From the NCBI RefSeq assembly GCF_004000235.1, contig NZ_RCIO01000001.1, positions 744,001 to 808,000 on the forward strand: DNA of 64,000 nucleotides, written 5' to 3'. Shown one piece after another: positions 12,516-19,426 of the stretch (its first letter is position 1; every line of letters starts with the position of its first letter). Under the pieces are notes generated by a model. That model saw nothing but the letters and a program-made list of their open reading frames with translations. It made no database searches and had not been told where the DNA came from. The translations under genes and the position numbers were made by a program. Source of the stretch: Mesorhizobium sp. Z1-4. Its GTDB lineage: Bacteria > Pseudomonadota > Alphaproteobacteria > Rhizobiales > Rhizobiaceae.

Positions 12516-13139
12516 TCAGGCGTCGGCGAATTCGAGATCGACGATGGCAACCAGTGCAGCGAAGACGACCGGCTCAAGATGCTCCTCGCGTGCGCCGAGT
12601 TCGCCTGCTCCCTCAGACACGAACACCCAGTCGTGGGTCGCAAGAAGCCCCTTCAGCCGACCGACCATACCGGCGGACCTTTGTCCGCCGCGCGGCAGCC
12701 GCACGAGTTGGCCAAGCGGTTTGTCGCCCGCAAGGCAAAGATAGGTGCAATTGCTGCCGTTGAGGACCGAACGCAATATTTGCCGGGAGACCGATGCAGG
12801 GTCCACGAACTCGGCGAGCACGTCATTCTGCGCGGAGGTCAGCCGGATACCGGATTTCAACCCGCCGCGCCGCGAAGCAACAGCGACAACCGCGCCGCCG
12901 GCGTCGATGAGACGCCACGTCCCCGGCTCGCGCGCCGACCAATCGACCGTCAGGGCCTGCCCGTCGGCGCCGCGGCATTGCGCACCGCCCCCCAGATGCG
13001 GCTTTTCGAGGTCGAAAACGATGCGCGGCTCCGCAATCTGGCCGTTCACATCGGAACAGACAGCGTACCGGACCGCAATGCCGGCGGGCAGATCCGCCGC
13101 GCCGGACCGCTGTTTCAGAAAACGGAGATGTGTTGCCAT
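12516..13139 (-). CDS. Uncharacterised protein
   Basis: 207 residues from the ATG at 13139, chosen because GGAG lies 9 bases upstream and because an earlier start would run into the hairpin element at 13233-13263. It has no signal peptide, no membrane span and no motif I recognise. Beta-rich stretches alternate with Gly/Arg-rich turns (GGAVVAVASRRGGLKSG), and the C-terminus is acidic and hydrophobic (LEPVVFAALVAIVDLEF). Codon usage resembles the surrounding genes. It is transcribed in the same direction as the dipeptidase, after a 93-base gap, and downstream of the candidate small RNA at 13226. Confidence 0.7.
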   Translation of the reverse strand: MATHLRFLKQRSGAADLPAGIAVRYAVCSDVNGQIAEPRIVFDLEKPHLGGGAQCRGADGQALTVDWSAREPGTWRLIDAGGAVVAVASRRGGLKSGIRLTSAQNDVLAEFVDPASVSRQILRSVLNGSNCTYLCLAGDKPLGQLVRLPRGGQRSAGMVGRLKGLLATHDWVFVSEGAGELGAREEHLEPVVFAALVAIVDLEFADA

Positions 13140-13224: not shown

Positions 13225-13263
13225 AAAAAAGTGCCGCCGTGGTGGAGGGGGAACCACGGCGGC
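13225..13263 (-). terminator. Factor-independent terminator on the minus strand
   Basis: An 11-bp perfect GC-rich stem (13233-13243 with 13253-13263) and a 9-base loop, then AC and TTTTTT on the minus strand. It faces away from polA and ends about 85 bases before the hypothetical gene start at 13139. It therefore terminates a transcript that begins within the polA upstream region, which supports a small RNA there. Confidence 0.75.
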
Positions 13264-13366
13264 GTTACTTCAAACTGGACGGCAGCCCGGAGAGGGGGAT
13301 GAGGCTGCCGTCTTAGATGTCCGGGTAGGCGGGGGACGGGCCTATGTCCGGACCCGGCGAAAATTG
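13226..13366 (-). ncRNA. Candidate small RNA with three C-rich-loop hairpins (anti-Shine-Dalgarno type)
   Basis: Read on the minus strand, three hairpins follow each other: 13353-13319 (outer stem 6 bp, inner stem 5 bp, loop CCGTCCCCC), 13312-13278 (perfect 10-bp stem, loop containing CCCCCTCT) and 13263-13233 (perfect 11-bp stem GCCGCCGTGGT, loop TTCCCCCTC). The last is followed after AC by six T residues (13230-13225), a factor-independent terminator. No coding gene on this strand lies upstream that would need it, since polA runs the other way. All three loops could pair with purine-rich GGAGGG sites. This layout matches the alpha-r14/NfeR1 anti-SD sRNAs of rhizobia in style. The 5' end is a guess, and family membership is inference. 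Confidence 0.6.
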
Positions 13367-13526
13367 CCGATGACTAGGATTTGTGACTGCGATGATGGCG
13401 ATTCAAGGGCGTCAACATTACAGTTGTGTAACGAAGGCGTGAGCATGCTGCACTGCGTCAGGAGCGTTGTCAGGAACGGCTCTTAGCAATGGACACAGCG
13501 GCGAGCGCAGGCTACCCCTTCGCCCC

Positions 13527-16454
13527 ATGGCAAAAGGCGATCATCTCTTCCTCATTGACGGTTCCGGCTACATTTTCCGCGCATACCACGCGCTGCCGCC
13601 GCTGACCCGCAAATCCGACGGCCTGCCGGTGGGCGCGGTGTCCGGCTTCTGCAACATGCTGTGGAAGCTGATGCTCGATGCGCGCAACACCGATGTCGGC
13701 GTCGTGCCGACCCATCTGGCGGTGATTTTCGACTATTCGTCGAAGACGTTCCGTCATGAAATCTATTCCGACTACAAGGCGAACCGCTCCGAGCCGCCGG
13801 AAGACCTCATTCCGCAGTTCGGGCTGATCCGCGAGGCGACCAAAGCCTTCAACCTGCCCTGCATCGAGCTGGAAGGATTCGAGGCCGACGACCTGATCGC
13901 CACCTATGCCCGGCAGATGAGCGAAGCGGGCGGCGACACCACGATCATCTCTTCAGACAAGGATCTGATGCAGCTCGTGACCGACCATGTCGGCATGTAC
14001 GATCCGATGAAAGACCGTGAGATCGGCATTTCCGAAGTGATGGAGAAATGGGGCGTCGGGCCCGACAAAATGATCGACCTGCAGGCGCTCACCGGCGACT
14101 CGGTCGACAATGTACCGGGCGTACCCGGCATCGGCCCGAAGACAGCGGCGCAGCTGCTGGATGAATATGGCGATCTCGACACGCTGCTTGAGCGCGCCGG
14201 TGAAATCAAACAGCAGAAACGCCGCGAAAACCTGATCGAACACGCCGAAAAGGCGCGCATTTCGCGCGAGCTGGTGCGGCTGAAAATGGACGTTCCGGTC
14301 AAGGAGACGATCGACCAATTCGCGCTGCAGCCGCCTGACGGACCCAAGCTGATCGGCTTTTTGAAGACGATGGAATTTTCCTCGCTGACCCGGCGCGTTG
14401 CCGAGGAAACGGGCGCGGAAGCCGGCGAGATCGACCCGGTGCAGGTGAAAGTGGAGTGGGGCAGCGACGCGCACGGCCCAGATGTCGGCTCCGGCAATAC
14501 CGAAAACACAGCCGACGGCGATGGCGCCAACACGTCCGGCGAAAAGGAATATGCGCCGGCGGCCCTTGCTGCGAAGCGGGCTGAGCAGATCGTTGCGCAG
14601 GACGTGGATAACGCTGGATACGAGACCGTGCGCGACGTCGACACGCTGCAGAAATGGGCGGAGGAAGCGCGGGAGCTCGGGCATTTTGCGTTCGATGTCG
14701 AGACCACGTCGCCCGATCCCATGCAGGCCGAGCTGGTCGGTTTCGCGCTGGCGATCACACCCGGCCGCGTGGCCTATGTGCCGCTGGCGCACAAGGACCG
14801 CGACAGCGATTTGCTCGGCGGCGGGCTGGTGGACGGCCAGATAGCGGTGCGCGATGCGCTTGCCGTGCTCAAGTCGGTGCTTGAGGACCGCTCGATCCTG
14901 AAGATCGGCCAGAACCTCAAGCAGTATCTCGTCGTGATGAACAGGCATGGCATCGACATCGTCAACTATGACGACACGATGCTGCTGTCCTATGTGACCG
15001 ACGCCGGCTCGGGCGGGCAGAACATGGAAGCGCTCGCCGAGCGCTGGCTCGGCCACACGCCAACCGCGCTCAAGGAACTCACAGGCAGCGGGCGCAGCGC
15101 GGTCACTTTCGACCTGGTGGCGGTAGACAAAGCCGCCGCATACGCAGGCGAAATCGCCGACGTTACGCTGCGGCTGTGGCTGGCGCTCAAACCGAGGCTG
15201 ATCTCGAAGGGGCTGGCGAGCGTATATGAGCGCCTGGAACGCCCCCTCGTCAGCGTGCTTGGCCGCATGGAACAGCGCGGCATCTCGGTCGACCGGCAGA
15301 TCCTGTCGCGGCTTTCGGGCGAATTCGCACAGAGCGCGGCGGCGCTGGAAGACGAAATCTACGAGCTTGCAGACGAGCGCTTCACCATTGGCTCGCCGAA
15401 GCAGCTCGGCGATATTCTGTTCGGCAAGATGGGGCTTCCCGGCGGCAGCAAGACCAAGACCGGGCAGTGGTCGACCTCCGCGCAGATACTTGAAGAGCTG
15501 GCGGCAGAAGGGCACGAGCTGCCGCGCAAGATCGTCGACTGGCGCCAGGTCACCAAGCTGAAATCGACTTATACGGACGCCCTGCCCGACTATATCAACC
15601 CGCAGTCGAAGCGCGTTCACACATCCTATGCACTGGCCTCGACCACGACCGGACGGCTTTCATCGTCGGAGCCGAACCTGCAGAATATTCCGATCCGGAC
15701 AGTGGAAGGCCGCAAGATCCGCGCCGCCTTCATCGCAGAACCCGGCAACAAGCTGATCTCGGCCGACTACAGCCAGATCGAACTGCGCGTGCTCGCCCAT
15801 GTGGCCGACATTCCGCAGCTCAGGAAAGCGTTCGAAGACGGTGTCGACATTCACGCGATGACGGCATCCGAGATGTTCTCCGTACCTGTGGAAGGCATGC
15901 CGCCGGAAGTGCGCCGCCGCGCCAAGGCGATCAATTTCGGCATCATCTACGGCATTTCGGCTTTCGGCCTTGCAAATCAGCTCGGCATCGAACGCTCGGA
16001 AGCGAGCGACTACATCAACAAATATTTCGAACGCTTTCCCGGCATTCGCGACTACATGGAAAACACCAAAGCGTTCTGCCGCGAGCACGGCTATGTGGAA
16101 ACGATATTCGGGCGACGGGCGCATTATCCCGAAATCCGCGCGTCCAACCCGCAGCATCGCGCATTTTCCGAACGCGCTGCGATCAACGCGCCGATCCAGG
16201 GCTCGGCCGCCGACATCATCCGCCGTGCGATGGTGCGTATGGACGCCGCTCTCGACAACGCCAAGCTGACGAACGTGCAGATGCTGCTGCAAGTGCATGA
16301 CGAACTGATATTCGAAGCGCCCGAAGCGGATGTGGAACCGGCCATGCCCGTGATCCGCGACATCATGGAGAATGCCGCAATGCCGGCAATTTCCATGGCG
16401 GTGCCGCTGCATGTCGACGCCCGCGCCGCCGACAACTGGGACGAGGCGCACTAG
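13527..16454 (+). CDS. polA: DNA polymerase I
   Basis: 975 residues from the ATG at 13527, where the conserved start (AKGDHLFLIDGSGYIFRAYH) begins. An upstream TTG frame extension adds 20 non-conserved residues and has its AGGAG only 2 bases away. Domains in order: 5'-3' exonuclease (about 1-290, with FEADDLIATYAR and DSVDNVPGVPGIGPKTAA), 3'-5' exonuclease (about 370-560; FDVETTSPDP and ILKIGQNLKQYL) and polymerase (about 590-975; STTGRLSSSEPNLQNIP, SADYSQIELRVLAH, RRRAKAINFGIIYG, LLQVHDELIFE). The exonuclease DEDD residues appear intact. It replaces RNA primers and fills repair gaps. A linker of about 50 residues (EWGSDAHGPDVGS...) between the two exonuclease domains is acidic and likely flexible. 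Confidence 0.97.
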   Translation: MAKGDHLFLIDGSGYIFRAYHALPPLTRKSDGLPVGAVSGFCNMLWKLMLDARNTDVGVVPTHLAVIFDYSSKTFRHEIYSDYKANRSEPPEDLIPQFGLIREATKAFNLPCIELEGFEADDLIATYARQMSEAGGDTTIISSDKDLMQLVTDHVGMYDPMKDREIGISEVMEKWGVGPDKMIDLQALTGDSVDNVPGVPGIGPKTAAQLLDEYGDLDTLLERAGEIKQQKRRENLIEHAEKARISRELVRLKMDVPVKETIDQFALQPPDGPKLIGFLKTMEFSSLTRRVAEETGAEAGEIDPVQVKVEWGSDAHGPDVGSGNTENTADGDGANTSGEKEYAPAALAAKRAEQIVAQDVDNAGYETVRDVDTLQKWAEEARELGHFAFDVETTSPDPMQAELVGFALAITPGRVAYVPLAHKDRDSDLLGGGLVDGQIAVRDALAVLKSVLEDRSILKIGQNLKQYLVVMNRHGIDIVNYDDTMLLSYVTDAGSGGQNMEALAERWLGHTPTALKELTGSGRSAVTFDLVAVDKAAAYAGEIADVTLRLWLALKPRLISKGLASVYERLERPLVSVLGRMEQRGISVDRQILSRLSGEFAQSAAALEDEIYELADERFTIGSPKQLGDILFGKMGLPGGSKTKTGQWSTSAQILEELAAEGHELPRKIVDWRQVTKLKSTYTDALPDYINPQSKRVHTSYALASTTTGRLSSSEPNLQNIPIRTVEGRKIRAAFIAEPGNKLISADYSQIELRVLAHVADIPQLRKAFEDGVDIHAMTASEMFSVPVEGMPPEVRRRAKAINFGIIYGISAFGLANQLGIERSEASDYINKYFERFPGIRDYMENTKAFCREHGYVETIFGRRAHYPEIRASNPQHRAFSERAAINAPIQGSAADIIRRAMVRMDAALDNAKLTNVQMLLQVHDELIFEAPEADVEPAMPVIRDIMENAAMPAISMAVPLHVDARAADNWDEAH

Positions 16455-17173: not shown

Positions 17174-19426
17174 ATGAGAATCGGGATTTGTGCGCGCACG
17201 CTCGCGGCCACCGTGACGCTGCTTGCCGGCGGGGCGGTGCTGACTGACGCGGAAGCGCGCACCAACCGCGCCGTTCTGGTTGCGGTGACCAAATATCCGA
17301 ACGTACAGGGCGCCGACCTCGTCGGCCCCAACAACGATGCCCAGCTCGTGCGTGAATATCTTACCACCAGCGCGCCGGTGCCGTTCGCGCCCGAAAACGT
17401 GACCGTGCTTGCCGACGGGCTCGAAGGTGCGACGATCTCGCCGACACGGCAGGCCATTCTCGACGCGCTGGCCGAAGCCGCCGCGAAATCCGAGCGCGGC
17501 GACTTCGTTTATCTGCATTTTTCCGGCCACGGCATCCAGCAGCCCGCTGCGGATGTGACCTCAGAGCCAGACGGGCTGGACGAGGTGTTCCTGCCCGCCG
17601 ACATCGCACCCTGGGTCGACCGTTCCAAGGGCATTCCTTCGGCCTTTCCCGATGACGAAATAGGTGCGGCGGTGCAGGCGATCCGCGACAAGGGCGCGTT
17701 CGTGTGGATCGTCATCGACGCCTGCCATTCGGGCACGGCGACACGCGCGCTCGACGGCGACGTGACCAACCGCAAGATCGATCCCGATCAGCTCGGCATT
17801 CCCGAACAGGCCTTTACGGATGCGCTGAAAGAAGCCGCCGGTGCATCCACCCGCAGCCTGGAGCGCGAGGAAACCCGCGCGCTGGCACTTTATGCCAAAC
17901 AGACGGCCGGCGATGGCGATGCCTCGCCAACCGGCGCGGAGGCTATCGCGCCCGGCGGCATGGTGGCGTTCTTCGCCGCCCAGACCGTGGAGACCACGCC
18001 CGAAATGCCGCTGCCGCGCGGCAGCGAGGATGCAAAAAAACTCGGCCTCTTCACCTACACGCTTTTTTCCAAGCTCGCACAGAACCCTGCCATGAGCTAC
18101 CGCCAGCTCGGCCAGAGCGTGATGCAGGAATACGCCGCGCAAAACCGAACACGCCCGACGCCGCTGTTCGAAGGCAATCTCGACACGCCGGTGTTCGGCA
18201 CGTCGAGTGGCGAATTCGTGCAGCAATGGCGCGTAAAGATCGAGCCCAGCGGCATGACCATTCCCGCCGGCACCCTGCACCGGCTGGCGCCAGGCACGCG
18301 GCTTGCGCTGCTCAATTCGCCGGCCGACGCCATAGAAGACGCGATCGGTTATGCCGAGGTGCGCTCCGCGCAGTCGCTCACGGCAAAGCTCGGCACGGTG
18401 GAATTTGCAGGCAATGCAAGGATCAACCCCCGCGACGTTCCAGACGGTGCCTATGCGCGCCTGACAGAAGTAGCGTTCGACACCGAACTGGTGGTTGCGC
18501 GCCCGGCGGCGAGTTCGACGTTTGCCGGAGAAGTAGCGGCCAGCAACCGATTGCTCGATGAAATTGCCGCCAACGAGGACACACCGGTCAAAATCCGCCT
18601 TGTCGACCCCGAGGACGATGCCGACCTGAAGATGGCGGTTCTCAGCGAGCAGGACGTTGCGCTGCTGGTGGCCGACGCCGGACCGGGTGCCATGTCGGCG
18701 ACAATCGACACCGGCACACGCAACGCGATCAGCGACGCGCCGCGGCTGTGGTTCCTGCCGCCGACGGCAGAGATTTCGCTCATGGAAGGCCGCCGCCCAC
18801 CCTCGATCGGGCTGCAGGGCAGCACGCAGGAGGGTCTCAAGACCGAGGTTGCCGACAATCTGACCCGGATATTCCGCGCCACCAACCTCGCGCGTCTCGC
18901 AGCCGCCAACAATTTCGACGACAGCGAGTTCGAGGTCGCGTTCAAAGTGAAGCCAGCGGAAAGCAACGAACTGGCCCCCCTGGAAGCAGCGACCACACCG
19001 GTGGTGCATCCGGGCGACCAGGTGCATCTGGAAGCACATAACCGCTCCGGGCGTCCCGTCGATATCAACGTACTCTATATCGGTTCCGACTATTCGATCA
19101 GCCATATGTATGCCGAGCGGCTGCATGACGGCGCAGACGTCGAGCTGCCGCTGCTTCAGTTCAACGACGAGAGCTTCGGCGTAGAGCGCATGGTGGTGGT
19201 GCTGACGGAAGGAACCGCAATCACCACCACGGAAGACCTGAGCTTTCTCGCTCAGGAAGGCGTGCGCGTGATGACGCGCTCGGCGGCGCATCCGGAAGGC
19301 TTTGCAGGCCTGCTGCGCGACATTGGCGATGCGCCCTCGACACGCGGAGCGATGAAGCTTGGCCAGGCGCCCGCTTCGAAGGGTGCGGTGCTGATCTACC
19401 CGCTCGAGAATAAGCCAACCGAATAA
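17174..19426 (+). CDS. Secreted caspase-like (peptidase C14) protein
   Basis: 750 residues. A signal peptide (1 to about 28, cleaved near TDAEA) directs it to the periplasm. The p20-like caspase domain follows immediately, with catalytic His119 in YLHFSGHG and Cys184 in VIDACHSGTATR, the metacaspase-type dyad. A pocket segment (VAFFAAQTVETTPE) and LGLFTYTLFSKL, common in bacterial C14 proteins, come next. The remaining 450 residues have no named domain I can assign; the last 140 (VHPGDQVHLEAHNRSGRPVDINVLYIG...) resemble the beta-rich DUF4384-like modules often attached to C14 domains. GGGAG precedes the ATG by 6 bases. Two small envelope genes follow on the same strand. Confidence 0.87.
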   Translation: MRIGICARTLAATVTLLAGGAVLTDAEARTNRAVLVAVTKYPNVQGADLVGPNNDAQLVREYLTTSAPVPFAPENVTVLADGLEGATISPTRQAILDALAEAAAKSERGDFVYLHFSGHGIQQPAADVTSEPDGLDEVFLPADIAPWVDRSKGIPSAFPDDEIGAAVQAIRDKGAFVWIVIDACHSGTATRALDGDVTNRKIDPDQLGIPEQAFTDALKEAAGASTRSLEREETRALALYAKQTAGDGDASPTGAEAIAPGGMVAFFAAQTVETTPEMPLPRGSEDAKKLGLFTYTLFSKLAQNPAMSYRQLGQSVMQEYAAQNRTRPTPLFEGNLDTPVFGTSSGEFVQQWRVKIEPSGMTIPAGTLHRLAPGTRLALLNSPADAIEDAIGYAEVRSAQSLTAKLGTVEFAGNARINPRDVPDGAYARLTEVAFDTELVVARPAASSTFAGEVAASNRLLDEIAANEDTPVKIRLVDPEDDADLKMAVLSEQDVALLVADAGPGAMSATIDTGTRNAISDAPRLWFLPPTAEISLMEGRRPPSIGLQGSTQEGLKTEVADNLTRIFRATNLARLAAANNFDDSEFEVAFKVKPAESNELAPLEAATTPVVHPGDQVHLEAHNRSGRPVDINVLYIGSDYSISHMYAERLHDGADVELPLLQFNDESFGVERMVVVLTEGTAITTTEDLSFLAQEGVRVMTRSAAHPEGFAGLLRDIGDAPSTRGAMKLGQAPASKGAVLIYPLENKPTE

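Follow-up and report, generated by a model that had tools for sequence, protein, structure and literature searches.

What is the row of three C-looped hairpins that lies beside polA on the minus strand in Mesorhizobium sp. Z1-4, and what does it do? Within the window (the whole stretch of 64,000 nt that we analyzed), the minus strand from 13372 to 13225 carries a short 5' hairpin, then three strong hairpins whose loops are rich in C, and T6 at its end. Hairpin 1 (13319-13353) exposes the loop core GUCCCCC (13337-13331), hairpin 2 (13278-13312) exposes the loop AUCCCCCUCUCC (13300-13289; mean unpaired probability 0.99), and hairpin 3 (13263-13233), with the loop UUCCCCCUCC, forms together with the T6 (13230-13225) an intrinsic terminator that spans 13225-13263. 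A simple terminator scan missed hairpin 3 because its loop of 9 exceeds the scan's loop-size limit of 8. The fold of 151 nt reaches -68.7 kcal/mol, against -45.3 +/- 3.7 for shuffles (z = -6.39), and not one of the 200 shuffles is as stable. The original prediction, of a minus-strand small RNA gene upstream of polA with a terminator as its third hairpin, placed all three hairpins correctly, along with the C runs in the loops and the terminal T run, and in each of these points it is borne out; we refine its coordinates only in extending the element 5' to about 13372, so as to take in the 5' hairpin (13370-13354).

A search of all Rfam families clearly identifies this element as the ar7 small RNA (RF02342; SmrC7/Sra03/SmelC023 family), whose gene, about 147 nt long, occupies 13225-13372 of the minus strand. 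At 111.1 bits (E 5e-22) the match clears the curated cut-off of 60; it spans 13372-13228, covers the model completely (1-145), and is the only copy of ar7 in the host genome. The original prediction had offered a choice between a member of alpha-r14/NfeR1 and an independent look-alike of it. Membership, with the RNA acting through three CCUCCUCCC anti-Shine-Dalgarno loops, draws on the common plan of three C-loop hairpins, and the alpha-r14 covariance search that was proposed at the time does return a match of the ar14 model (RF02344; 40.2 bits, E 4.5e-05). That score is nevertheless under the curated cut-off of 58.8, whereas the ar7 score is far above its own. Moreover, the CCUCCUCCC motif that defines ar14/NfeR1 by its presence in each of three loops (PMC10746234) has no copy in the element or in the whole window, and two genuine ar14 genes, both above cut-off, lie elsewhere in the host genome (C24:203071-203193 and C1:471778-471897, carrying two and three CCTCCTCCC motifs, respectively). 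Score and motif thus refute ar14 membership, to which we attach next to no probability. CcsR1 (RF02791) was likewise rejected, at 22.6 bits under a cut-off of 65.3. The ar7 match over its cut-off and the failure of ar14 together leave a third option that the original choice did not contain, neither ar14 member nor independent look-alike, and the claim of a new anti-Shine-Dalgarno RNA falls with it: the element is an ordinary, conserved member of a known small RNA family.

Conservation of the element agrees well with this assignment. Of 151 genomes from the family (Rhizobiaceae), 125 have a match to ar7, 100 of them over the cut-off; among 249 genomes drawn from the order, nine have a match, all nine belonging to the same family, and weak homologues outside it may be missed because both genome searches used stricter filters. 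In an alignment of 50 homologues, standard pairs fill 98.0% of pair cells, 23 of the 31 pairs change on both sides, and the covariation score is reached by 0 of 500 shuffles; the test somewhat favours the structure, because the structure was derived from that very alignment. When partners are slid by 1-3 columns as a control, pairing falls to 28-46%. Between two clades the strongly covarying stem 2 is replaced as a whole, its loop remaining CCCCCUCUCCGG in nearly all, and the loop 1 sequence GTCCCCCG is invariant among the 50. The loop cores are unpaired in the fold and nearly fixed in relatives, and the short 5' hairpin (13354-13370) is the variable part of the family. Compensatory stem changes and fixed loops, both of which had been suggested as checks, are therefore present, with one qualification: across relatives the five-C run expected in every loop never varies in loop 1 and hardly does in loop 2, but loop 3 widely conserves CCUCC alone.

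In Sinorhizobium meliloti, ar7 was described in 2007 as SmrC7/Sra03, later SmelC023, at the same location beside polA. Other groups detected the RNA by Northern blot (PMC2245857, PMC2573895), the first of these papers describing three hairpins with a strictly conserved central loop; the same gene is also treated in PMC2873474. Transcription starts at 201679/201681, processing at 201723 yields a shorter form besides the discrete transcript, and levels are about 13-fold higher in nodules (PMC2780559). No co-immunoprecipitation with Hfq was detectable (PMC2848018). A discrete transcript of about 147 nt is known only from other species than the present host.

The position of the gene is as stable on one side as it is variable on the other. 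The divergent neighbour polA (13524-16454, plus strand) encodes DNA polymerase I, as supported by Pfam PF00476, exonuclease domains and synteny; its product shares 94% identity with that of two metagenome-assembled genomes of Rhizobiaceae, and about 70-78% with the other listed records, including Mesorhizobium, Aquamicrobium, Aminobacter, Hoeflea and Rhizobium. A single-sequence search placed ar7 at 94 loci; at more than 80 of these polA lies within the fetched stretch, divergent from ar7 every time, and the remainder have no polA inside the stretch. This microsynteny has been reported before, together with a verified homologue in A. tumefaciens (PMC3927594). Downstream of ar7, at a distance of about 200 nt from loop 1, most Mesorhizobium-like relatives carry a gene for an M20 peptidase; in our window about 720 additional nt, which hold an orphan ORF, intervene. 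Rhizobium-type loci have a different gene cluster there, described in PMC3927594 as a MarR-type regulator. The orphan ORF (12516-13139, minus strand, 207 aa) has no Pfam or NCBIfam match and was not found at 80 polA-linked loci of relatives, two congeners included. On the far side of polA, a 750-aa protein (17174-19426, plus strand) shows a weak caspase-type domain match (NF047832, 43.5 bits, below the cut-off of 140).

Since a same-strand gene follows, whether the orphan ORF here or the M20 peptidase gene in relatives, the RNA could in principle be the 5' leader or attenuator of that gene. The downstream gene differs from case to case, however (orphan ORF, M20 peptidase, or the MarR-type gene reported for Rhizobiaceae in PMC3927594), while the RNA and its polA side stay constant, and the S. 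meliloti transcript is discrete and terminated. We reject a cis leader because the downstream gene is not conserved, and regard it as very improbable.

The sequence upstream of the element is conserved as well. A promoter on the minus strand (13379-13407) consists of CTTGAA (13407-13402), 17 nt, and ACAAAT (13384-13379); CTTGA[AT] is present in 91 of 97 homologues and is followed 17 nt on mostly by CCAAAT or ACAAAT. The -35 box fits RpoH1 and the -10 box does so loosely, since the RpoH1 motif is CTTGAA-N15-16-CCTATAT (PMC4843759). The S. meliloti gene is given RpoD and RpoH1/2 promoters in a review table (PMC7143759), and the promoter sequence here is compatible with RpoD/RpoH. Taken together, ar7 is with high confidence an independent gene that is transcribed in the direction away from polA and has a promoter and a terminator of its own.

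Further upstream lies the inverted repeat GTTAC-N6-GTAAT (13417-13432, minus strand), a likely regulator site whose core, TTAC-N6-GTAA, we find upstream of ar7 in 87 of 97 homologues, a raw count from loci that are related and hence not independent. The distance from this core to the -35 box is 24-25 nt at 66 loci and 34-36 nt at 20, with one outlier at 69; in a second set, of named records, the spacings are 24, 25, 26 and 35. From one class to the other the spacing shifts by roughly one turn of the helix. The exact repeat occurs once more in the genome, and we found no mention of the upstream element in the ar7 papers that we consulted. It is tempting to speculate that TTAC-N6-GTAA is a dedicated activator site of the ar7 promoter, kept in helical register throughout the Rhizobiaceae; the pattern suggests such a role, which we hold tentatively and at slightly less than even weight. 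If so, expression of ar7 would be under the conserved control of a single regulator in addition to a stress sigma factor. The element offers a route to the regulator of ar7 and is the sole part of the locus that we deem worth following.

Most likely ar7 is a trans-acting antisense small RNA, whose C-rich loops would pair over short stretches with G-rich mRNA sites, often near ribosome binding sites, and so lower translation or stability of the mRNA, probably without Hfq. The model for such action is NfeR1 of the ar14 family, which silences ntrBC via C-rich seeds (PMC10746234). The anti-Shine-Dalgarno role first assigned to the loops is plausible, but our target searches gave it no positive support. 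Among 50 ORFs of the window, pairing of the loops does not favour start regions above the interior of the coding sequence (p = 0.66, 0.10, 0.21). A search of 20 genomes for exact 11-nt complements of loop 2 revealed no target gene shared by BLAST among the 60 fetched regions inspected, a subset of the matches, and seeds of 6-8 nt would escape a search of this kind. The near matches fetched from the host's own genome have no ORF start just downstream. The zapA operon, proposed as an ar7 target (PMC2245857), shows no strong site here on inspection by eye, and we found no published target in the literature.

Several loop 2 complement matches have common flanks, such as cgaagccgagac or cgtgaagaacgg. 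At loci L248, L273, L293, L295, L296 and L298, which belong to several relatives, the complement lies at about position 600 (in L273 also at 154, on the minus strand), with gaagcccgagac or cgaagccgagac preceding GGAGAGGGGGA. These common flanks suggest an interspersed repeat that carries an ar7-pairing sequence.

Alternatively, the loops may act on a protein or the ribosome as a decoy rather than by specific mRNA pairing. Such a role would suit loops that are nearly fixed across the whole family and yet have no conserved long-complement target that we could find, and the sequence of loop 1, GUCCCCCGCC, differs from an ordinary anti-Shine-Dalgarno. Nevertheless, pairing via C-rich seeds is how AbcR works, and likewise NfeR1 with its similar layout (PMC10746234), and short seeds of 6-8 nt would evade our complement search. 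We consider a decoy improbable, and antisense pairing in trans the better account.

In summary, what looked like a new anti-Shine-Dalgarno RNA belongs to a named family on which papers have appeared since 2007; it occurs as a single copy, is widely retained across its family and has nearly fixed loops. The locus resembles ar7 of S. meliloti (SmrC7 = Sra03 = SmelC023) in sequence, loop sequences, terminator, its three covarying hairpins with a variable 5' domain, copy number and divergence from polA, and is unlike it in nothing essential; this genome has the extra stretch with the orphan ORF before the M20 peptidase gene. With CcsR1 it shares a terminal hairpin with a C-rich loop, but the score is far from that family's cut-off. 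The likeness to ar14 (RF02344; NfeR1) lies in three hairpins, C-rich loops and presumed pairing with ribosome binding sites, and on plan alone the two families are easily confused; however, the ar7 loops lack CCUCCUCCC, the stems differ, and ar14 is separately present in the same genome.
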